DNA from: Leptospiraceae bacterium
GTDB lineage: Bacteria; Spirochaetota; Leptospiria; Leptospirales; Leptospiraceae
Reading direction: 5' to 3'
Assembly (NCBI GenBank): GCA_947458405.1
Contig: CANGZW010000034.1
Span: 1 to 33,393 of the forward strand
Length of the DNA stretch: 33,393 nucleotides
Shown: in pieces, positions 780 through 32,001 of the stretch
Position numbering within the stretch: position 1 is the first letter of the stretch
How the letters are laid out: each line of letters begins with the position of its first letter
Program-made: the position numbers and the translations under genes
The notes under the pieces: model-generated
What the model saw: the letters and a program-made list of their open reading frames with translations, nothing else
Told to the model about the DNA's origin: nothing
The model's database searches: none

Positions 780-1565
780 ATGCTAAATTATTTTCTGTAT
801 AACTTCCAAACATTTCTAATGATACTCTCTAGAGTATTCGGGCTATTTTCTATAGCTCCCGTGTTTGGTTCGGATGCAGTGACTTTTTCGTATCGCATAA
901 TGCTTTCTTTTTTACTTTCTTTGATATTGTATCCCTTTGCGAATGAACACATGATGAAGGTTCCCGGAGGAATGGGGGAATTTGCTGTAATTATCATCTC
1001 GGAAGGATTGATAGGAATACTGATCGGATTTCTAGTGAATATAATTTTTGCAGGTTTTCAGATGGCTGGAGAATACTTCAGTGTTCAGATGGGATTTGGT
1101 TATACAGAGGTTTTAGACCCCGTAAGTCAAACTTCCCTCCCTGTGATCAGTCAGTTAAAAAACCTAATGGGTATTATGCTATTTTTGGTTACGGGTGCAC
1201 ACAGAGTGATGATAGAGACATTAGCCCTCTCCTTTGAAAAAGTAAAAATAATCGTATTTACCGCTGAAGTAAACAATGGAATCATTAAAGTCTTTGAATC
1301 CGCCATTGGGGCTATGTTTGTGGTGGCTTTTAAAATTGCCTTACCAGTGCTCGGGATTTTAATATTAGTTACGATTGCAGAAGCACTCATGGGAAAAGCC
1401 GCTCCCCAAATGAATATCATGCAACTCAGCTTTCCCGCAAAAATAGTAATAGGAATGGGGGTTTTAATTATAACCATTCCTTTGATTGAAAAACAAATGA
1501 TAAGTAGTTTTGAATTATCCTTTGATAGAATACAAACGCTCTTTAGGTTATGGCCCGCACAATGA
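780..1565 (+). CDS. fliR: Flagellar export gate protein FliR
   Basis: FliR is the single-copy polytopic subunit that completes the FliPQR export gate. At 261 residues it has the family's length, with about six hydrophobic segments. Recognisable FliR stretches include FLMILSRVFGLFSIAPVFGS near the N-terminus, the loop GFQMAGEYFSVQMGFGYTEV, and the later segment around EALMGKAAPQMNIMQLSFPAK, which is a FliR hallmark. The start abuts the fliQ stop without a spacer. The 3' end overlaps flhB by 16 or 4 bases, depending on which flhB start is used. No ribosome site of its own is evident, so translation probably depends on coupling to fliQ. Confidence 0.95.
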   Translation: MLNYFLYNFQTFLMILSRVFGLFSIAPVFGSDAVTFSYRIMLSFLLSLILYPFANEHMMKVPGGMGEFAVIIISEGLIGILIGFLVNIIFAGFQMAGEYFSVQMGFGYTEVLDPVSQTSLPVISQLKNLMGIMLFLVTGAHRVMIETLALSFEKVKIIVFTAEVNNGIIKVFESAIGAMFVVAFKIALPVLGILILVTIAEALMGKAAPQMNIMQLSFPAKIVIGMGVLIITIPLIEKQMISSFELSFDRIQTLFRLWPAQ

Positions 1566-2659
1566 TATATGAAGAATTTTTAATTGACCTTCAATTATTT
1601 GCCGCCGAAGACGAGGGGCGAACAGAAGAAGGAAGTGAGAGACGAAGAAAAGAAGAAAGGGATAAGGGAAATGTACCCAAATCCAATGAGCTTCCCGCTT
1701 CTTTGGTATTACTTGCTTCCATACTTACGGTTTATTTGTTGGGCAATTATTTTTTTACAAAATCATTTTTTCTCTTTAGAAAGTACATAGAAAATATACA
1801 TACTTACGAATCATTTTCTTCGGAAGATCTGGGTATTTTGTTTAGAAATGCGGCAGAAGATATTCTTACACTCTTATTTCCTATTCTTGCCGTTGGATTT
1901 ATTGTGGCTATTGCCGGAAATATTGCCCAAGTAGGATTTCTTTTTAGTACCCAGGCTATCTCTTTTAATTTTGGAAAAATTGCTCCCAATTTCAAAAAAG
2001 TACTACCGACCCGCCAAACATTGTTCAGCCTCGGAAAAGCATTGGCTAAATTATTGTTGATTGGGTGGGTTTCCTATATTATTATTTCCAATGATTTTAT
2101 ACCCATGCTCAAAGCGGGAGATGTTGGTATTAAGGGTGCGTTAATCATGATAAGTCGATCATCCTTAAAAATCTTTTTGGTCATCGGGATCTTATTTTTT
2201 GCCATCAGTATTTTGGATTATTACTTTCAGAAATACGAATTTGAAGAGTCCATTAAAATGACACCCTCCGAAGCCAAGCAGGAAATGAAAGAAACAGAGG
2301 GGGATAAATCAATTCTCAATAGAAGAAGAAATATGGTGAGAGAATTTATTCGAAAAGGTATGCTCCAGAGAATTCCCAAAGCGGATGTCGTAATAGTCAA
2401 TCCCACCCACTATTCAGTGGCTCTCGAATACAAACCAGAAAAACACACCGCACCCATAGTGACAGCCAAGGGAATGGATGAAATGGCACTTTTGATACGA
2501 AGACTCGCTAAAAAGAATGATGTACCCATAATTGAAGATAGGATAACAGCCAGAATGTTATACGATGAAGTTGAAGTGGATAAGGAAATACCCGCCAAAT
2601 TTTTTAGAGCGGTATCCATAATTATTTCCAGACTCGATAAGTATAGGAGAGTTGCTTAA
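1550..2659 (+). CDS. flhB: Flagellar export switch protein FlhB
   Basis: FlhB is the substrate-specificity switch of the flagellar export apparatus. It self-cleaves at an N-P-T-H motif when export changes from rod/hook to filament proteins. The motif is intact at residues 284-287, in the context [12 protein letters not shown]. The N-terminal half carries a charged segment ([20 protein letters not shown]) and four hydrophobic helices, and a lysine/glutamate-rich linker precedes the cytoplasmic domain. At 369 residues it has normal length. Two starts are possible: ATG 1550 (16-base overlap with fliR) or ATG 1562, which would give an ATGA overlap like fliP/fliQ. An AGG at 1545-1547 is too close for the first and somewhat far for the second, so the start is undecided. 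Confidence 0.96.
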
Positions 2660-2661
2660 AA

Positions 2662-4773
2662 ATGAGTACAAAAAAATGGTACAACCAATCTGATGTAATA
2701 CTAGGGGGGGGTGTTATAGGAATACTAGCTATGTTAATAGTTCCTCTTCCCGGATTTGTATTAGATCTTTTGATTGTAGTAAGTCTTACCTCCGGACTCT
2801 TAATTTTACTTACTTCTCTCTCTGTAAAAGAACCATCCGATTTTACAATATTTCCAAACTTACTTTTGATTACTACCCTGTATAGGTTGGCTCTAAACGT
2901 TTCAACAACCAGACAAATTTTAGCAAAAGGTTCCTCCTTTAATAGCCATATTATTGATGCCTTCGGAACATTCGTTGTCGGTGGTGGTACGGGTATGGGA
3001 CGTTATGTAATAGGATTTATTATATTTTTAATTTTAGTAATCGTCCAAATAGTAGTTATCACCAAGGGTGCAACCCGTATTGCAGAGGTTGCGGCAAGGT
3101 TTACTTTAGATGCACTTCCCGGTAAGCAGATGGGGATTGATACAGAACTTTCGAGTGGAAATATTACAGAAGAAGAAGCACGAGCTAGAAGAAAAAAAGT
3201 CCAAAGAGAAGTTGATTTTTACGGGGCAATGGATGGAGCGAGTAAATTCGTTCAGGGGGATGTTCGGGCGGGGCTAATCATTACTGCCATTAACTTAATC
3301 GGTGGAATTATAATTGGTATGGCAATCAGAGGGGAAAGCTTTGCAAATGCCCTGGAAATATATGGAAAATTTACGATTGGGGATGGTCTTGTATCGCAAT
3401 TGCCCGGTCTTTTGACAACAACTGCAACGGGTATGATTGTAACACGTGCTGGTTCGGATAAAGACTTAGCAGAAGAGTTTAGAGCACAACTCTTTATGAA
3501 TCCCCAAACTCTCTATGTGGTTTCAGCCAGTCTTGCCGCAGCTTCACTCATTCCGGGATTGCCATTTTTTACTTTGATGTTTTTTGCGGCAGGAATAGCT
3601 TATTTAGCCTATTCCATAGATAAAAATGCCAAGGAAACACTCGCATCCATAGAGAAAAAAGATAATGATATAAAAGTAGAAAAGAAACCAGATTATTACA
3701 AAGAATTGCGTATTGATCCTATTGAAGTTGAATTGGGATTAAATTTAGTACCCCTTGTGGATGCCAGTCAGGGTGGTGTACTACTCGATCAAATCTCTAA
3801 TCTTAGAAGAAGGTTCGCTATTGATACAGGACTTGTAATACCTGCAGTTAGAATCTTAGATAATTTGGAGTTAAATCCGGATTCCTATTCAATTAAGGTA
3901 CATGGTGTGGTTGTCGGTGAAAGTAAGATCAAAGCTGATAGACTCATGGCACTAGACAATGCTAAAAAAGTTACCGATCCCGTTCGGGGAGAAGATTTCA
4001 CAGAGCCAACATTTGGATACAAAGCTAAGTGGATTCATCCGGATGATAAAATTGACGCTGAGAATAAAGGTTATACTGTCGTAGATCCATCTACAGTAAT
4101 TGTAACACATCTAAAAGAATTAATAGCAAATCATGCCGCATCCCTATTGGGAAGAGAAGAGATCAAGAGTCTTCTCGAGCATCTCAAGGCTTCCCATCCA
4201 TCCCTTGTGGCTGAAATTGATGACAAAAAAATTGGATATGGTCTTATCCAACAGGTATTACAAAATCTTTTGAGGGAAGGTTTGGGAATTAGAAACTTAT
4301 CCGGAATTATTGAAGCAATTGCCAATAACGAAGCCCGTTCTAGAGATCCCTATTTCTTATCCGAGAATGTAAGACAGTCTATTTCCAGACAGATTATCAA
4401 TGATTACCAAGGGGCTGATGGAAGATTGCATGTTGTAACACTTGACCCTAAGGTAGCGGATAGATTGAGCAAAGGGGTTGTAGTCGATCCAATCGAGGGA
4501 AGTCTGATTTCCATTCCTCCTGATTATTATAACAAATTAATAGAATCTATCGCTAGAGAGTACAATAAGTTTCACAATGAGGGAAAATTTCCAATATTTG
4601 TAGTCAGTCGTCCCCTACGTTTGCCATTTTCATATATGTTAGCAAAAGAATTTCCTCCGAGAAATTTTGCAGTGATTGCCATTGAAGAAATACAATCCTC
4701 CACTAAAACTGTAATGGAAGGTGTAATCAATGTTTACTCAGAGCCGGTGAAGAGCGGTAGGAACACAGAATGA
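2662..4773 (+). CDS. flhA: Flagellar export apparatus protein FlhA
   Basis: FlhA forms the nonameric ring of the export apparatus. Its membrane part conducts ions and its cytoplasmic domain docks chaperone-substrate complexes. The 703-residue length fits the family. The first roughly 330 residues hold about eight hydrophobic helices. The cytoplasmic loop between helices 4 and 5 carries the FHIPEP-family signature, including [19 protein letters not shown], with L152-P153-G154-K155-Q156-M157. A linker around residues 330-360 leads to the large C-terminal cytoplasmic domain. The GGAGAGTT stretch before the ATG at 2662 provides a ribosome site inside the end of flhB, leaving a 2-base gap. Confidence 0.97.
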
Positions 4774-4798
4774 TAAATATATTTTTTGAGAGGTATGT

Positions 4799-6133
4799 AT
4801 GGATTTTGTAAAGATTAGAGGTAGGGATATTCAGGATTGCTTTATGCAAATGAAGATGAAGTACGGACCGGAAGCCCATGTTTACGAGCAAAGGATAGTC
4901 ACCGAAGGGGGCGTCTTTGGAAGTAAGTTGTTAGCCAAAAAATATATTGAAATCGAGATTGGAGTACCCGAACAACAAACCTCAAAGGATCGGGTAGAGC
5001 GTAAGCTCGAAGATCTAAAAGAATTGCTCCGCCAAAAAACAGGGGATGAATCACGAAACAAAAAGAAAGGATTGAGTGATATCAAGCCTATTTTGTCGAG
5101 GGAGAGGGATCGCGATAGGGATAGAGAAAAAAGATCTTCTTTCGAGGAAGAAAATCCTAAAACAGAGCCCCAATTTACTGAATTTACCCCTGTAATTAAA
5201 AGGGAGAGTAGGGAATTAGGCATTTCTATGAAAGATGAACTTTTATACAATGAACCTAATATACCTGTAAAACAAAACTATAGCAATGATTCAGTGTATC
5301 TTAGAAGAGTTAAAGAAAAGCTAATAAAAGAAGGTATGACACCAGATTATGTTGAAGAATTAGTCCAAAAAGCTGACAAACATCTTTCTTATATCGATAA
5401 GGCTAAGAGTTCAGCAGTGAATGATAAAATGGCTGAAATTATGGAAGATAGAATCAGTGTAGATTCTGATTTATTTTCAGGTACAGGAAGGGGAAAAAGA
5501 AAAGTAATATTTCTCGTCGGGCCCACAGGGAGTGGTAAGACAACTACAATCGCAAAATTAGCGGCTAAGTATTTTTTGCACATGGGTAGAATGGTTTCGT
5601 TGTACACAACGGATAATTATAGAATTGCCGCTATTGAACAGTTGAAGAGATACGCTGATACAATGGATATTCCATTTTTTGCAGTTAAGGATTTAAAAAA
5701 ATTCAAAGAAAATCTTTCCCGGGATGGGTCTGAACTAATTTTAATAGACACAGCCGGTTATAACCATAAAAATCCTGATTTTTTGCAAAAAATGCAAGCC
5801 TATCAGGAGGCCTTCTCTGATAGAGACCAAGTAGAAAATATACTTGTATTACCTTCAATTATATCTTCATCCAATATGAAATCTGTAATGACTGCCTATG
5901 AAGATGTTGGGTATAAACGAATTATTTTATCTAAAATGGATGAAGCAGATTATATTTCATCTGCCCTAGAGTTAGCAGATACAAACTCTAAGTCGTTTGC
6001 CTATTTCAGTATTGGACAGGAAGTTCCTTTTGACATGATACCAGCATCCAAAAAGATATTCGCTGATTTAATTATGAATCCAGAAAAAATGAAGGATATA
6101 AAAGGGGAAGCATTTGCGTTTGCAAATTCGTAA
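4799..6133 (+). CDS. flhF: SRP-type GTPase FlhF
   Basis: FlhF is the third SRP-family GTPase (with Ffh and FtsY). It directs flagella to their correct cell site and works with FlhG. The N-terminal B domain (about 1-85) is followed by a charged linker containing an unusual run of alternating R and D near residue 100. The NG domain then shows a Walker A P-loop GPTGSGKTTT at residues 241-250, TTDNYRIAAIEQL, the DTAG switch at 317-320, and SKMDEA in place of the usual TKLDE. The GAGAGG at 4788-4793 supports the ATG at 4799; the ATG at 4795 is out of frame. At 444 residues, family membership is clear. Confidence 0.96.
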   Translation: MDFVKIRGRDIQDCFMQMKMKYGPEAHVYEQRIVTEGGVFGSKLLAKKYIEIEIGVPEQQTSKDRVERKLEDLKELLRQKTGDESRNKKKGLSDIKPILSRERDRDRDREKRSSFEEENPKTEPQFTEFTPVIKRESRELGISMKDELLYNEPNIPVKQNYSNDSVYLRRVKEKLIKEGMTPDYVEELVQKADKHLSYIDKAKSSAVNDKMAEIMEDRISVDSDLFSGTGRGKRKVIFLVGPTGSGKTTTIAKLAAKYFLHMGRMVSLYTTDNYRIAAIEQLKRYADTMDIPFFAVKDLKKFKENLSRDGSELILIDTAGYNHKNPDFLQKMQAYQEAFSDRDQVENILVLPSIISSSNMKSVMTAYEDVGYKRIILSKMDEADYISSALELADTNSKSFAYFSIGQEVPFDMIPASKKIFADLIMNPEKMKDIKGEAFAFANS

Positions 6134-6142
6134 GATATAAAA

Positions 6143-7033
6143 ATGGACCAAGCCGCGGCACTTAGAAAATTACGGGATAAATCTCCAATTAAATCCTCCC
6201 AAAATAAGACTAAAAAAAGATCTACCAAGATTTTTGCTATTAGTTCTGGAAAGGGAGGTGTGGGAAAAAGCACCATAACTGTAAACTTAGGACTCTCCTT
6301 AACTTTAGAGGGAAAAAAAGTTTTGATTATGGATGGTGATCTTGGACTGGCTAATATCAATGTAATAATGGGAATAATTCCCAAGTACACATTGTATCAC
6401 GTAATACGTGGACAAAAGACTCTTAAAGAAATTATTTTACAAACTCCCGAAGGATTGAGTATTATCCCCGGGGCTAGTGGATATACACAACTAGCTGATT
6501 TAGATTCTAATGCTCGAGAAAATCTTATGAAGAGTTTTGCAGAGATTGATGATTTTGATTATATCCTAATAGACACGGGTGCAGGTATTAACTCGGTTGT
6601 TATCAATTTAATTATGGCGGCTGATGAAGTGATTATAGTTACAACTCCCGAGCCCACATCTATAACAGACTCATATGGATTAATTAAATCAATTATCAAT
6701 AGAAATAAAAGTTTTAAACTTAGTGTAATAATAAATAAAGCAAAAGATGAAATAGATGGTAGAAAAGTTTCAAAAAGGGTCGTGGATATCTGTAATAAAT
6801 TCTTAAATGTAGTACCAAAAGAAATTGGAGTTGTCTATAAGGATGAGGAAGTCGAACGAAGTATTTATGTTCAAAAACCATTCATCATAAACTCACCTAA
6901 ATCTAGAGCGGCAGATTGTATTTTTAGATTGAGTAGGACAATCATAGAAGAAAACATTGGTCAATCAGATGATGATAAGCGTTTGAGTGGCTATTTGAAA
7001 AAGTTTTTTGCTAATAATGATAATGAGAAATAG
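6143..7033 (+). CDS. flhG: MinD-like ATPase FlhG (YlxH)
   Basis: FlhG is a MinD-type ATPase that limits flagellar number and stimulates the GTPase of FlhF. The N-terminus begins MDQAAALRKL, which contains the DQAxxLR activator helix known from FlhG proteins to act on the FlhF dimer. The deviant Walker A motif is KGGVGKST at residues 37-44, with the signature lysine K37 and the P-loop lysine K42. MDGDLGLANI is the Walker A-prime/switch I aspartate region, and DYILIDTGAG is Walker B/switch II. The 296-residue length is normal. The gene lies 9 bases downstream of flhF with only a weak AAGA ribosome site, so coupling to flhF is likely. Confidence 0.95.
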   Translation: MDQAAALRKLRDKSPIKSSQNKTKKRSTKIFAISSGKGGVGKSTITVNLGLSLTLEGKKVLIMDGDLGLANINVIMGIIPKYTLYHVIRGQKTLKEIILQTPEGLSIIPGASGYTQLADLDSNARENLMKSFAEIDDFDYILIDTGAGINSVVINLIMAADEVIIVTTPEPTSITDSYGLIKSIINRNKSFKLSVIINKAKDEIDGRKVSKRVVDICNKFLNVVPKEIGVVYKDEEVERSIYVQKPFIINSPKSRAADCIFRLSRTIIEENIGQSDDDKRLSGYLKKFFANNDNEK

Positions 7034-7042
7034 GGGAATAGC

Positions 7043-7552
7043 GTGAAATCAAAAATCGTTATAGCTTTTTTTGTTATAGGAATTGGATTGAGTTTACCGG
7101 GTGGCATTATTGCGGGAAATTCTATTTATAATATTATAACATATAGTATTATCTCTTCAATTGTATTGGCTGGATTAGTTTTTGGATTGTTATCTTTTCT
7201 GGAATCTAAGGTTCCCGAATTTACAGATTTTTTAAACAATGTCAGTAGTGGAAATTTTTCGGCAGCTTCCGAAGGAGAAGAGGGAACTGACTCTTCCGAA
7301 CAACAGGGAGATTCAAAATCTAATCAAGAATTTTCAGATTCTCACTCGGGCACATCGGGAGAAAAATCAACATTGGGTGACCCGTCATTACCTTCAAATC
7401 CTAAGAATGAGAGACCTAAGAATGGAAAATTTGGGGATCATATAATGATAGATAATATTCCTATTAAAAATGAACCCAAATTAATGGCAGAAGCTATAAG
7501 AACGATTATGGCTCAGGATGACATGCCCAATAATCTAAATAAACCAAAGTGA
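7043..7552 (+). CDS. Two-helix membrane protein of the flagellar operon, function unknown
   Basis: I do not recognise a named family. The GTG start at 7043 is supported by AGGGGA at 7032-7037. The 169-residue product has two hydrophobic segments (about 4-24 and 31-53), then ESKVPEF and a long polar tail rich in Ser, Glu and Gly (about 70-130) that looks disordered. The C-terminus is more ordered and ends with a helix-like stretch around LMAEAIRTIMAQDD. It lies 9 bases after flhG and 88 bases before the sigma factor. I recall comparable small membrane proteins at this spot in other spirochaetes, but cannot verify that. A role in flagellar assembly or in sigma-28/FlhG regulation is inference from position only. 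Confidence 0.8.
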   Translation: MKSKIVIAFFVIGIGLSLPGGIIAGNSIYNIITYSIISSIVLAGLVFGLLSFLESKVPEFTDFLNNVSSGNFSAASEGEEGTDSSEQQGDSKSNQEFSDSHSGTSGEKSTLGDPSLPSNPKNERPKNGKFGDHIMIDNIPIKNEPKLMAEAIRTIMAQDDMPNNLNKPK

Positions 7553-7640
7553 AAATATACCAGAGTAATTATAAAAATATACAAAGTGAGGAAATGATTT
7601 AATTCAAACCCAAGAGCTAAGAGTTAAATTAAAATAATTT

Positions 7641-8441
7641 ATGTCCAGACTACTAGATAAGTACAATCAAATTGATGAAACATCCCTTTGGAAAGAATAT
7701 CGTGCCACCAAGAAACCAGAAATCAGAAGCTACTTGGTTGAAAAATATTCTCCTCTTGTAAAGCACGTTGCCGGTAGAGTTGCAATTGGTATGCCTCAAA
7801 ATGTGGAGTTTGATGATCTTGTGAGTTATGGAGTATTTGGACTTTTAGATGCAATAGAAAAATTTGATCCGGCAAGAGAGATTAAATTCAAAACCTATGC
7901 TATGACCCGAATCAGGGGTAGTATATTTGATGAATTGAGATCTGTGGACTGGATTCCCCGATCTATCAGGCAAAAAGCTAAACAATTAGAGCAAATAATT
8001 GGAATGCTTGAGAACAAAGAAGGAAAACCTGTTGAAGATGAGGTTATTGCTAAAGAATTAGGTGTTTCCATGGAGGAATATACTTCTATTCTAACTAAAA
8101 TCAGCGGAACTTCTCTTGTATCACTTAATGATATTTGGTTCTTGGGGGATGAAAACGATGAAGTTTCTTTTATGGAAACATTAGAATCCCCCTCTAATAT
8201 GAATCCCGATGTAATTATAGAAAGAGAAGAAATTAAAAATGTAATAGTAGAAGCAATTAAGACCCTCCCGGAAAAAGAAAAAAAGGTAATAGTTTTGTAC
8301 TACTATGAAGATTTAACCTTAAAAGAAATTGGTGAGGTTTTGGAAGTTACTGAGTCAAGAATCTCTCAATTACATACAAAAGCTGTGATGAGATTGAGAA
8401 GTAAATTAGGAAAAGTAAAATCTGTGGTAACTCGAAAATAA
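7641..8441 (+). CDS. fliA: Flagellar sigma factor sigma-28 (FliA/WhiG type)
   Basis: This is a group 3 sigma factor that directs RNA polymerase to late flagellar and motility promoters. Region 2 is clear ([20 protein letters not shown], then [20 protein letters not shown] and [15 protein letters not shown], all hallmark FliA/WhiG sequence). Region 3 follows ([19 protein letters not shown]). Region 4 contains a helix-turn-helix, [20 protein letters not shown]. At 266 residues it matches the family. The start ATG at 7641 has no obvious Shine-Dalgarno site after an 88-base AT-rich gap, so expression may be separately set. The gene ends in a strong terminator and is the last member of the operon. 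In spirochaetes the same gene is sometimes named whiG. Confidence 0.94.
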
Positions 8442-12158: not shown

Positions 12159-13406
12159 TTAATTATTTTCTAAAATTTCATTGTATAAATAAAAAAGAGA
12201 AATTTGAACTACAGCATTTCTAAAACTCTCCCTTCCAAAGGGATACAAATGCTTATGTATTTTTATTTCTTTATTTATTCTTTTTATACCAATATAGACT
12301 GTGCCAACTTCTTTTTCTGGTGTTCCGCCACCGGGTCCCGCTATACCTGTAACAGATATACTATATGTAGATTTAAAATTATTTTCTAATCCTATTAGCA
12401 TTTCCCTTGCAACTTCTTCACTCACCGCACCAAAATTTTTCAAAGTATCTCTTTTTACATTTAAAAGTTTTTCTTTAATATCATTGTGATAACTCACAAT
12501 TGATCCTAAATAATAATGAGAAGAACCAGCTAAATCTGTTATACATTTTCCAATATAACCCCCCGTACAGGATTCTGCAGTAGAGAGAGTTTCCTTATTA
12601 TTAATCAGTAAATTATGAATAGATTCTAAAATATCATCTGTAAGTAATTTTTTATAAAAATTCTGTAATCTTATTAAGATTTCATCTAATAATAGATTAG
12701 ATTCAGATATAAAAGATACTTTAATATGTCCTGCTTTAGCTGTAACACCCCATTCGATATTGTTTTCTTTGATAAAATTGAGATTTTCATTTATAAATTC
12801 TTTCTGATATAGACCTTCGCTCATATTCCAAATGTACTTGGAGAGGTATAATTTTTTTACAATAGGAAAATCCTTTATAATATTGGGTAATAATTCATTT
12901 GAAAACATTGACTTCATTTCAATAGGCACACCGGGCATTGCAGATAGCCAAAAATTATCACCTAATTTAACCAAAAATCCGGGGGCAATTCCAACATTAT
13001 TCAAAAGAACAGTGGCATTTTCAGGAATATAGGTTTGTTTCGAAGTAACCCCGAGTAATTCCATATACTGGGGTCCTCTTTTTTCGGAGATACTGACTAA
13101 TTTATTGTAGGCGGATTCTACTCTTATTTTAGAAGAACCTGTAATACCCAAAACTACATTTAAAGTATGATCATCCATGGTGGCTCCCAATCCACCCGTC
13201 ATAATTATTAAAGTTGGAGATGTTGATGGGATAAATCTTTCTATTTCTTCTTTTATGATTTTTGGAGAATCCGGAACTACTATAAATCTTTCAGCAATAT
13301 AACCCTTTAAAGAGAGTTCATTGGCTATCCACATTGAATTTGTATCTAAACTCTTACCGGTAGTTATTTCAGATCCGGTTGACATTATAATTATTGATAA
13401 ATTCAT
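12159..13406 (-). CDS. cinA: CinA-family protein (MoCF-like domain plus NMN deamidase domain)
   Basis: The N-terminal domain (about 1-170) is the MoCF/CinA fold, with STGSEITTGKSLDTNSMWIA and the TGGLGATMDD motif. The C-terminal domain (about 255-415) is the PncC type, which deamidates nicotinamide mononucleotide in pyridine nucleotide recycling. It carries the characteristic TAESCTGG with the probable nucleophilic Ser, then GSIVSYHNDIKEKLL and SVTGIAGPGGGTPEKEVGTV. At 415 residues it is a normal two-domain CinA. The N-terminal domain of this family has been described as an ADP-ribose pyrophosphatase. Its start overlaps the argS stop by 4 bases (13403-13406). The older name, competence/damage-inducible protein, does not imply competence here. 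Confidence 0.92.
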   Translation of the reverse strand: MNLSIIIMSTGSEITTGKSLDTNSMWIANELSLKGYIAERFIVVPDSPKIIKEEIERFIPSTSPTLIIMTGGLGATMDDHTLNVVLGITGSSKIRVESAYNKLVSISEKRGPQYMELLGVTSKQTYIPENATVLLNNVGIAPGFLVKLGDNFWLSAMPGVPIEMKSMFSNELLPNIIKDFPIVKKLYLSKYIWNMSEGLYQKEFINENLNFIKENNIEWGVTAKAGHIKVSFISESNLLLDEILIRLQNFYKKLLTDDILESIHNLLINNKETLSTAESCTGGYIGKCITDLAGSSHYYLGSIVSYHNDIKEKLLNVKRDTLKNFGAVSEEVAREMLIGLENNFKSTYSISVTGIAGPGGGTPEKEVGTVYIGIKRINKEIKIHKHLYPFGRESFRNAVVQISLFYLYNEILENN

Positions 13407-15160
13407 TTAGATTCCCTTTCTAATCTATCCGGAGCAGTAATACCAAGAATTGCAAGACCCTCTTTTAAGCACACTAGGGTACCTTCCAATAAAAAACTCA
13501 ATGCTTTTCTTTCATCCGTAGAACAATCTTTTAATTTATTATCCTTGGCAATATAAAATTTGGAAAATGTTTTAGCCAGATTTTGTAAATAATTGGCAAG
13601 TCTATGTGGCTCCATATTTTTAGCAGAATCTAATATTTCTTCAGGAAATCTAGCAATCCAAAATAATAATCTATCTCTTTCATAAGTTGAATTTAAATTT
13701 AAAAACAAGTCTATATCTATCTCTTTTCCAACTTCTTTAAATATCGATTGAATTCTCGCATGTGCGTATTGCAAATAAAATACAGGATTTTTATCGCTTT
13801 CTTCTTTAGCCAAATCTAAATCAAAATCCAAGGGAGTTTCGAGAGCTCTTATCACAAAAAAATATCGGGCTATATCCCTACTGGAATCGCCTAGAAACTC
13901 CATAAGATCATTCATCGTTTGAAACTGTCCGAGTCTTTTACTCATTTTTACTTTCTCGCCTTTTGAGAGAAGGTTTACTTGTTGGGCTATTAAAATTCGA
14001 AAGGATTCATCGGGATAACCCAAAGCAATCATTGCACCTTTTAATCGTGCAATATAACCATGATGATCGGGTCCCCATATATTATAAAGTTTTGTAAATT
14101 TCCTATCTACTTTTGTCTTGTGATAAGCAATATCCGCCAGTAAATATGTGGGTCTTCCATCATCACGTACTACAACTCTATCTTTATCATCCCCGTACTC
14201 AGTGGATAAAAAAATAAATTTATTATCTTCTTTTTTGATTTTACCTGTGTTGTTTAATTCTGCAAAACATTCATCAACTTTTTTTGATTCATGAAGACTT
14301 CTTTCACTATAAAAAGTATCAAATTTTACACCAAAATTCTCTAAATCTTTCTTTTGGGTTTCGAGATTATAACTTGTAGCTTTGATTGAGAAATATTCTG
14401 CTAATTCTAAAAAATTATTTTTGTTATACATTAAATCTATATTTTCTTTTTCAGATGAATTATAAATTTCTTTAACAAATTGTGCTACATATTCTCCTCT
14501 ATATCCTTCATAGGGAAGTTTATTAGTATTTAATAAGATTTCGAGGCTCGTAATGTCGCCTTCTTCCTGAAACTGAATTTCAAGACCCTTGAGTTCTTTT
14601 AGTCTAATAACACAGGATGCTCCCAATAAAAGAACCTGATTTCCATAATCATTTACATAAAATTCTCTTTCAACTTGATTCCCAACCTTACTTAATAAAT
14701 TTGTAATACTAGCACCCATAGCCGCGGCTCTAGCTGAAACGATATTTAAAGGACCTGTGGGATTTGCACTTACAAATTCAAATAATATCTTTTCTTTATG
14801 TGTAACTTCTGGAAAAATAGTAGATTTATTAATAGTAAATGAATTTATATAATTTGCTAATTCATTTTTAGAAATTTTAAAATTTACAAAACCGGGGGGA
14901 GAAAATGTAACTTCACTGAAAAGGTTAGATTGTAAAAAATTTATAAATTCTTTGGAATTTTCTATAGGTAAACCCAATTTTTCTTTATGCTCTAGCAAAA
15001 ATGCAGACGAATAATCTCCAAATTTTTCATTTCTTGAATATTCTATTTTAGGATTTAGCTCTTCGAGTGTATAAGGTAGGGATTTTAATTTTAAAAACTC
15101 CAAAACACCTTTTTCTAAAATTTTTAATACCTTATTTCTTAGTACTTCTGATTCATTCAT
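13403..15160 (-). CDS. argS: Arginyl-tRNA synthetase (degenerate HIGH motif)
   Basis: This class I aminoacyl-tRNA synthetase charges tRNA-Arg with arginine. The N-terminal domain (about 1-110, with FGDYSSAFLLE) is followed by the catalytic core beginning FEFVSANPTGPL, then DYGNQVLLLG, the ADIAYH region and the KMSKS loop as KMSKR at residues 405-409. The C-terminal helical domain includes FYLQYAHARIQSI and the DALR-type end. At 585 residues it has the expected length. The HIGH motif reads N139-I-V-S142 instead of HxGH, read directly from the bases; the surrounding NPTGPL and ARAAAMG are intact. This is the only argS in the window. It lies in an operon with recO (14 bases upstream) and cinA (4-base overlap). 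Confidence 0.95.
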   Translation of the reverse strand: MNESEVLRNKVLKILEKGVLEFLKLKSLPYTLEELNPKIEYSRNEKFGDYSSAFLLEHKEKLGLPIENSKEFINFLQSNLFSEVTFSPPGFVNFKISKNELANYINSFTINKSTIFPEVTHKEKILFEFVSANPTGPLNIVSARAAAMGASITNLLSKVGNQVEREFYVNDYGNQVLLLGASCVIRLKELKGLEIQFQEEGDITSLEILLNTNKLPYEGYRGEYVAQFVKEIYNSSEKENIDLMYNKNNFLELAEYFSIKATSYNLETQKKDLENFGVKFDTFYSERSLHESKKVDECFAELNNTGKIKKEDNKFIFLSTEYGDDKDRVVVRDDGRPTYLLADIAYHKTKVDRKFTKLYNIWGPDHHGYIARLKGAMIALGYPDESFRILIAQQVNLLSKGEKVKMSKRLGQFQTMNDLMEFLGDSSRDIARYFFVIRALETPLDFDLDLAKEESDKNPVFYLQYAHARIQSIFKEVGKEIDIDLFLNLNSTYERDRLLFWIARFPEEILDSAKNMEPHRLANYLQNLAKTFSKFYIAKDNKLKDCSTDERKALSFLLEGTLVCLKEGLAILGITAPDRLERESK

Positions 15161-30558: not shown

Positions 30559-31425
30559 ATGCTTAGAGGAATATATACAGGTGCAAATGGGATGATATCC
30601 CAACAGGTGAGAATGGATGTGATTGCTAACAATTTAGCAAATGCGGACAAAACAGCCTTTAAGCGAGATACAACCATCTTTAAAACATTTCCCGAAATGC
30701 TCATTCATAGGTATGACGAAGATGGAGTGGGTAAGATGCCCCTAGGTTCTTATGATACTGCTCCTGTAGTCGGAAAGCTAGGCCTCGGAACAGAAATCAA
30801 TGAAATATATACAAGATTTGAACAGGGAGCTGTCAAGAAGACAGACAATACTTTTGATCTTATGCTCAATGATAAGCCCGGTGTAGAGAAGCCTTCTTTT
30901 TTTGTTGTGATGACAAATAGGGGAGAGCGTCTTACAAGAAGTGGATCTTTTGTACTCGATACAAAGGGTTATTTGGTAACACCCCAAGGGTTTCCTCTTA
31001 TGGGCGAAAAAGGACCCATTCAGGTAACACGTTCTAATTTCTTGGTCAAAGAAAACGGGGAAATTATGATAAATGCTGATGTTGGAAATGAGCCCCGTAC
31101 TACAACTTCTACAGATCATAACCGTTTTAGCAATCCTGTAACACTAGATAAGTTAAAAATCAGAACAGTAGAAAACCCCCGTCATCTCGACAAAGAGGGG
31201 GATTCTTTTTATGCAGATACCCCCGAAAGCGGTGAGCCCATGCCTTTCCCGAATGCAAACTACGAGCCTGAAATTTTACAGGGCTATTTAGAGACTTCTA
31301 ATGTTCAGGTAGTTACCGAAATGGTGGAAATGATTGAAGTCAACCGTGCCTATGAAGCCAATGCTAAAGCTATGCAGACACATGATCAGTTATTGGGTAG
31401 GTTGATTAATGAGGTGGCTCGTTAG
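30559..31425 (+). CDS. flgF: Flagellar rod/basal-body protein FlgF (FlgF/FlgG family, FlhO-type)
   Basis: FlgF and FlgG form the flagellar rod in the periplasm. The N-terminus [20 protein letters not shown] with [16 protein letters not shown] is the axial-protein signature for export and coiled-coil packing. The middle shows the Flg-type beta region ([20 protein letters not shown]). The C-terminal motif [20 protein letters not shown] leads to [20 protein letters not shown], the second helical half. At 288 residues it is slightly longer than FlgG (about 260), which with family features favours FlgF. It is separated here from the export operon by other genes. The expected downstream flgG is absent and a transposase remnant overlaps the last 12 codons on the other strand. 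Confidence 0.88.
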
Positions 31426-32001
31426 GGATTCCTTACTCACTAATCCCAAATAACCACTTTCATTAGGACATGCCTTATTAACTAATAAGCCTATCCCATA
31501 GTGTCTCAAATTAGCCATTAAGCTATATTCAGATAAATACAATCCTGCATTCTCTGGTTTAAAGTAACAATACGACCTGAATGCAGTCTTAAGATTATTA
31601 TTATACCCCTCAGCTACCTGATTGTGTATTCCATTCTGACACCAACGATTCCCACTGAACCTGTATCTCTTATCTCTGCTCTTTAAACTATGATTTACCA
31701 TTCTGTGATTCTTGTAGATCCCCTGTAGAAAAGGGTAGCCCTCATCTGTGAAAATCCTTGAGTGCTTGGGAATGAACTCTACAATCTGGGAACCCAAGGA
31801 TTGAGTCGTTTGATCTGTGATATACTGGTAGATTACCCCTCCGCCTTTGATGGCTATTGTATGCACCAGAGACCCAATCTGTTTGCCCCCCAAGGAATCC
31901 GATAGATAGATACTTGCTGTCTGCCCTCCATGCCTGTGTCTCTTTCTCCCCTTATTCGCTCTCTGGCTTGCCGAAAACAAAACGAGAGTGTCTGCGTTCA
32001 C
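31390..32001 (-). mobile_element. Truncated IS1595-type (ISXO2-like) transposase gene
   Basis: The frame matches the C-terminal two thirds of a DDE transposase of the IS1595/ISXO2-like kind: RIFTDEGYPFLQGI with the second catalytic Asp, VNHSLKSRDKRY, and QVAEGYNNNLKTAFRSY with the catalytic Glu region. Full-length relatives are roughly 300 residues with an N-terminal zinc ribbon; here 203 remain, from a GTG start, and the N-terminal part is missing. A possible first Asp lies in NADTLVLFSAS. The frame is open upstream only to a stop at 32068-32070, with unrelated peptide. The last 12 codons read antisense through the end of flgF, so the original C-terminus was probably lost. It is very likely inactive. 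Confidence 0.75.

Follow-up and report, generated by a model that had tools for sequence, protein, structure and literature searches.

An arginyl-tRNA synthetase with NIVS in place of the HIGH motif: copy number, spread and possible mode of action

Class I aminoacyl-tRNA synthetases are recognised by two sequence signatures, one of which is the HIGH motif. Its first histidine is not universal, as illustrated by the TxGN variants of TrpRS-type enzymes, but these keep the glycine, unlike the arginyl-tRNA synthetase (ArgRS) considered here, which reads NIVS at the motif site and breaks a rule that has been taken as defining. Passages of a study on isoleucyl-tRNA synthetase (Brkic et al. 2023, PMC10485003) state that the first histidine of class I enzymes stabilises the transition state of activation and that its mutation costs about 1000-fold, and furthermore that the conserved glycine leaves space for adenine. 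The locus therefore raises the question of whether the protein is a working ArgRS and, if so, how it manages without these residues. In our estimation the probability is about 0.8 that it is the only, housekeeping ArgRS of the organism and belongs to a broad bacterial group whose motif reads [NVL]-[IVA]-V-[SN]. That it charges tRNA-Arg is very likely, judging from its occurrence as a single copy in draft genomes, its conservation and its predicted fold.

The argS gene and its motif site

The window, by which we mean the whole stretch of 33,393 nucleotides that was analysed, carries argS on the minus strand at 13403-15160 as an open reading frame of 585 codons for amino acids, the translation of which contains VSANPTGPLNIVSARAAAMGAS and KGEKVKMSKRLGQ. 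The protein scores 324.8 bits with the TIGR00456 argS profile (cut-off 261.65), and the domains Arg_tRNA_synt_N (PF03485), tRNA-synt_1d (PF00750) and DALR_1 (PF05746) are all found above their cut-offs and in the order of ArgRS. Where HxGH is expected, translation and alignment give NIVS (residues 139-142; 14735-14746, minus strand). The motif is approached by the conserved NPTGPL (residues 133-138; 14747-14764, minus), of which N133, P134 and G136 are conserved in the alignment across 114 sequences with V141 (V141-type) and 41 with G141 (G141-type), and it is followed by ARAAA. The second class I signature is intact as KMSKR (residues 405-409; 13934-13948, minus), K408 and R409 being conserved; MSKR is conserved throughout the family and the first lysine of KMSKR is not. 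The original prediction, made from the DNA sequence alone, had read the motif and all of these surroundings in the same way. In the motif helix, alanine replaces the aspartate of the usual G-D at residue 150 (14711-14713), where 154 of the 173 sequences aligned have D and two have A.

The AlphaFold model of the protein (pLDDT 93.9, pTM 0.92) has the Rossmann-type catalytic fold, its best match among solved structures being the Campylobacter jejuni ArgRS 3fnr (Z 34.2, rmsd 1.9, 445 residues, 35% identity), and among the 50 structure matches listed the top 15 are ArgRS, followed by CysRS and MetRS. Descent, profile and fold thus mark the protein as an ArgRS, and by its HIGH signature it is a variant class I enzyme rather than a regular member. 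It does not belong to the ArgS-related anticodon-binding proteins of the NrtL family (NF045898; 55.8 against a cut-off of 340), nor does it resemble IleRS2 with its G/AXHH motif in having histidines at motif positions 3 and 4, which are here V141 and S142.

One argS per genome and the spread of the motif

In the organism's own draft genome, which is 96.47% complete, searches that used the protein or the TIGR00456 profile as query match the argS locus alone, and this is the only argS found; the next profile match reaches 14.5 bits. The weak matches in this genome are, from their motifs, apparently MetRS (HLGH/KMSKS), ValRS (HIGH/KFSKS) and CysRS (HIGN/KMSKS), and HIGH has consequently not been lost generally in the organism. 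A first batch of 80 profiled genomes comprised 73 NIVS genomes at least 80% complete, five blanks and the genomes of loci L062 and L064. An argS was found in 75 of them (73 above cut-off) and a second full-length argS in none of the 75, the irregular cases being G036, with an extra argS fragment of 95 residues on another contig, G040, with argS in two pieces in different frames, and G041, with a piece only. The second batch brought together genomes of differing motif state, and argS was present in 53 of its 56 genomes, at one locus each.

These counts bear directly on the suggestion in the original prediction that this might be a diverged copy accompanied by another argS elsewhere. A degenerate or repurposed copy, with a canonical argS doing the work, would be in keeping with the loss of two residues regarded as catalytic. 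However, such a reading is highly improbable in view of the missing second gene in the organism's own genome, the single argS per genome in both batches, the full ArgRS domain set and the low score of the protein with the paralogue family NrtL.

A DNA pattern for the NIVS stretch has one match each in 83 of 392 Spirochaetota genomes, its reversed control having none in the table, and of the genomes searched, N[IV]VS was present in 43 of the 48 from the organism's own class and in 40 of the 344 from other Spirochaetota. The five genomes of the class that are without N[IV]VS (G021, G022, G026, G030 and G044) yielded no argS at the thresholds used and are assumed to have assembly gaps. G030 is listed as 100% complete, yet neither protein nor profile search found its argS, and for this genome one may think of a missing contig, or of something stranger. 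The closest relatives of the window ArgRS are found in metagenome-assembled genomes titled Leptospiraceae. A search by whole-protein similarity yielded 30 loci, the organism's own included, each of which carries NIVS or NVVS. Sixty-three loci from public collections comprise 24 of V-type (NIVS, NVVS or VIVS), one with TVAS and 38 with the first histidine; 46 of the 63 were listed for folding, and eight of these, with a stop within the matched stretch, were dropped.

The motif furthermore crosses phyla. The NIVS-type pattern is present in all seven genomes of the phylum of L062. In the phylum of L064, N[IV]VS is carried by 18 of the 45 genomes, and the other 27 comprise three with no argS, two with an E. 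coli-like ArgRS carrying HVGH, and 22 with other V-type motifs (NVVN, NIVN, VVVS, VVVN or LVVN). The pattern was found in none of 200 genomes of the phylum of L069 (from a genome titled Lysobacterales), and in one of 199 genomes of that of L060 (from a genome titled Oscillospiraceae), the match being locus L239. NIVS is in other words a lineage trait. This had been offered as one possibility in the original prediction, along with an uncertain memory of similar sequences in related spirochaetes, which turns out to have been correct, and the trait is spread more widely than was guessed there. It had also been held that NIVS would be ordinary for the clade if all close relatives shared it with normal activity; the sharing is borne out, normal activity is what we expect on the grounds given above, and by that measure NIVS is normal for the clade.

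An error of sequencing, assembly or alignment, for which one may point to the 198 contigs of the draft, is already contradicted and practically out of the question, since the same motif occurs in relatives from independent assemblies, with V141 and S142 in 30 of the 30 similar loci and synonymous variation of the motif codons in 90 distinct loci, since HxGH-bearing relatives align through the site ungapped, and since the motif helix starts at motif position 2 in both of two AlphaFold models (I140 in the window ArgRS and the equivalent I106 in the HIGH-bearing L057), by which an alignment slip is rejected.

Being broad and at variance with a defining rule, the NIVS-type group should stay of interest to those who work on synthetases. 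A natural group of HIGH-less ArgRS present as sole copies provides ready-made enzymes for studying what role HIGH plays, whether it can be replaced by KMSK and tRNA, and how a valine facing adenine is accommodated. On the practical side, motif filters that require HIGH would miss real ArgRS.

Substitutions found with the motif and losses of HIGH without them

Short sequences (L081 and L097) and rows identical to or contained in others were dropped to give a set of 163 sequences, which a 66% identity cut reduced to 94 representatives; five far ArgRS (L164-L168) were left out. A comparison of the 65 representatives with V141 and the 26 with HxG, groups that are defined by residue 141 itself, gave seven separating positions with a Jensen-Shannon divergence of at least 0.76, namely N139, V141, S142, A145, P364, A392 and Q394, the next position reaching 0.61. 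Four of these, A145, P364, A392 and Q394, lie outside the motif. The small residue A145, right after the motif (14726-14728, minus), is found in 64 of 65 V-type and in none of the 26 HxG-type representatives, the HIGH-bearing relatives having mostly W, G, N, Q or Y. Position 364, within GPDHHG (residues 363-368; 14057-14074, minus), is proline in 63 of 65 V-type and alanine in 26 of 26 HxG-type representatives, the stretch then reading GADHHG. Position 394 (13979-13981, minus), adjoining V395, is Q in 62 of 65 and L, F or M in 26 of 26, respectively. When ten later sequences are added to the 163, 112 of the 115 V-type sequences have P364 and 109 have Q394, and neither residue is found in any of 45 G141-type sequences of the NPxGP kind. 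Position 139 is V in five and L in one of the 115 V-type sequences. A relocation of HIGH to the HH of the protein was considered and rejected, this being the family's own GxDHHG, which HIGH-bearing relatives have as well.

Compared with canonical bacterial ArgRS that combine NPTGP with HxGH and MSKR, such as 3fnr, the window protein thus shares the fold, the domain order, NPTGP, MSKR and 46 positions conserved in both the 114 V141-type and the 41 G141-type sequences, but it has NIVS for HxGH and A145, P364 and Q394 for mostly W/G/N/Q/Y, A and L/F/M. Among the shared positions are N133, R144, N170, Q175, Y339, D343, Y346, D365, H366, Q393, V395, K408 and R409. From our own alignment we take N133 to be the equivalent of residue 153 of yeast ArgRS 1f7u, the N-terminal backbone bracket, and V395 to be that of residue 405, the C-terminal one, and because of this match the set A145, P364 and Q394 probably lines the ATP pocket, a placement that stems from alignment. 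The backbone brackets formed by residues 153 and 405 around adenosine are described in a passage of PMC5919687. The set may however be shared by descent rather than coupled to the motif, since the tree tests neither establish nor reject a single origin of the V-type and since the groups were set by residue 141.

Several HIGH-less ArgRS do without P364 and Q394. At position 364, A or T is found in L199 (VVVN) and L205 (LVVN), both of which have F at 394, and L239, which reads NVVS, has H145, R364 and M394; it is similarly near to HIGH-bearing and to NIVS sequences, and its motif is perhaps convergent. In the Thermoleophilia, the class of the L063 genome (titled Thermoleophilaceae), the pattern NP[TA]GPxT[VI] is found in 57 of 249 genomes, but this loose pattern is noisy, given that its reversed control matches about 16 of the 249 and that six of 30 fetched loci are not evident ArgRS. 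The other 24 loci (within L212-L237) are ArgRS and read TVGS (11), TVAS (8), TVAA (3) or TVAH (2). GADHHG is present in 22 of them, the remaining two being too short or broken there, an MSKR-like loop is kept where it was read, and all nine that were aligned have A364, L394 and K408. The genome of L063, the one profiled from this class, has one argS. Since the HIGH-less forms of the Thermoleophilia fall inside a starred group of the tree that also has HVGH members, the class has lost HIGH separately from the main lineage. As L199, L205, L239 and the Thermoleophilia all lack P364 and Q394, these substitutions are unnecessary for life without HIGH, and obligate compensation by them is weakened. 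The compensated active site proposed in the original prediction is accordingly upheld in so far as linked substitutions exist, and it fares less well in that several HIGH-less ArgRS are without P364 and Q394.

An ArgRS of another type, with SPNIAKPF, one of GIGH, SMGH or SIAH at the motif and an MSTR loop, is found at loci L165, L166 and L168 of the spirochaete genomes G050, G054 and G059. Q394 occurs in two of these three far, first-histidine-less sequences (L165 and L166, not L168), but the alignment is weak there and this is a lead only.

When the tree is built without the trait columns, the V-type forms a main group and two small groups at unresolved forks, and a constraint that unites it in a single clade is not rejected (p-AU 0.39 with 47 chosen rows, and 0.34 with 49 rows after L239 was added). 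The fewest state changes are 3, 6 and 8 on three trees that differ in their rows and in how states were coded, figures that do not amount to a count of events, since the deep forks are weak.

How activation might proceed without HIGH

The second lysine of MSKR, K408, is kept in all 115 sequences of the 163-sequence set that have neither histidine, all seven sequences without K408 keep at least one histidine, and nine later-read sequences without histidines have K408 as well. This pattern fits the notion that the two signatures can substitute for each other, although the counts are not independent, because of common descent. The mirror case also exists, since the ArgRS at L192 and L206 have a degenerate KMSK and a HIGH that is kept; like the NIVS type they have lost one signature, but the opposite one. 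A lysine of the HIGH loop of ArgRS is reportedly the subject of Sekine et al. 2001. KMSK is called degenerate in ArgRS in a passage of PMC8318970, and according to passages of PMC7916415 the adenylate is made by ArgRS only when tRNA is bound.

With these observations in mind, a mechanism can tentatively be proposed for which we would give somewhat less than even odds. Neither histidine would be required for the class I reaction. K408, together with backbone contacts from N133 and V395, would hold the transition state and the leaving pyrophosphate, and the active site would be closed by the tRNA, on whose binding activation by ArgRS depends in any case. N139 and S/N142 might assist, but the side chain of N139 is presumably non-essential, given that V or L can take its place. 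A valine at position 141, that of the adenine-facing glycine, would be tolerated by way of a shifted tip of the motif helix as in IleRS2, and in the main lineage A145, P364 and Q394 would fit the shifted site, with A145 giving room. The IleRS2 precedent (Brkic et al. 2023, passages of PMC10485003) is likewise a natural class I enzyme with an altered HIGH and a bulky residue at the adenine-facing glycine; the tip of its G/AXHH helix is shifted by 1.7 angstrom, so that a bulky third residue is accepted, and IleRS1 loses activity when changed likewise. IleRS2 however still has two histidines, at positions 3 and 4, the one at position 3 standing in for that at position 1, whereas NIVS has none.

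About equally tentative is the broader idea that HIGH is dispensable in the ArgRS family, because tRNA-dependent activation and the MSKR lysine would suffice, and that the two signatures are mutually substitutable. Both histidines would then have been lost several times and N-V-V-S have arisen perhaps twice, in the main lineage and in L239, the main lineage having lost the glycine as well, and every ArgRS would keep at least part of one class I signature. An easy loss of HIGH is counted against by LeuRS, where changing HVGH to AVGA raised the activity of the urzyme but severely lowered that of the full-length enzyme according to passages of PMC10450160.

A slightly weaker case can be made for mere tolerance, namely that the enzyme works because tRNA binding completes the active site of ArgRS, so that the histidines add little, and that the motif has drifted repeatedly, the additional substitutions being lineage history that compensates for nothing. 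The graded forms HVGH, HVGG, TVGS, TVAS, TVAA and TVAH in the Thermoleophilia-titled loci and class speak for this, as do the NVVS of L239 without A145, P364 and Q394 and the loss of the first position in the GIGH, SMGH and SIAH enzymes. The new motif is however itself conserved. In 90 distinct loci collected with a pattern that fixed N139 and V141 and also admitted T, C, R and W at position 142, only serine is found there (90 of 90), and its codons vary synonymously (TCN in 73, AGY in 17); V141 and S142 are likewise invariant in the 30 loci of whole-protein similarity.

Selection of the altered motif as protection from a natural inhibitor of ArgRS that binds in the ATP pocket, in analogy with G/AXHH of IleRS2 and mupirocin, appears improbable. 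No natural inhibitor of ArgRS acting in this pocket is known to us, and the trait sits in the only argS across whole genome groups rather than in a second copy. On the other hand, the bulky residue at position 3 of IleRS2 raises the inhibition constant up to 1000-fold according to passages of PMC10485003, and position 3 is here a valine.

A search of the literature, which left older subscription work uncovered, brought up no HIGH-less ArgRS in the titles and abstract openings of the papers listed, and PMC10485003 was the only paper on an altered HIGH noticed in it. Passages of two ArgRS papers treat KMSK and not HIGH, and the part of PMC3726837 examined, in which spirochaete ArgRS is used as a phylogenetic marker, makes no mention of the motif.

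Elsewhere in the window, positions 1550-8441 hold a flagellar run with FlhB and FlhA family proteins, a protein with an SRP54 GTPase domain, a ParA/MinD-type ATPase and a FliA/WhiG sigma factor, the best score of the latter being with WhiG (447 bits against a cut-off of 343), and a weak remnant of an IS1595 transposase is found at 31390-32001 (28.8 bits against a cut-off of 75).
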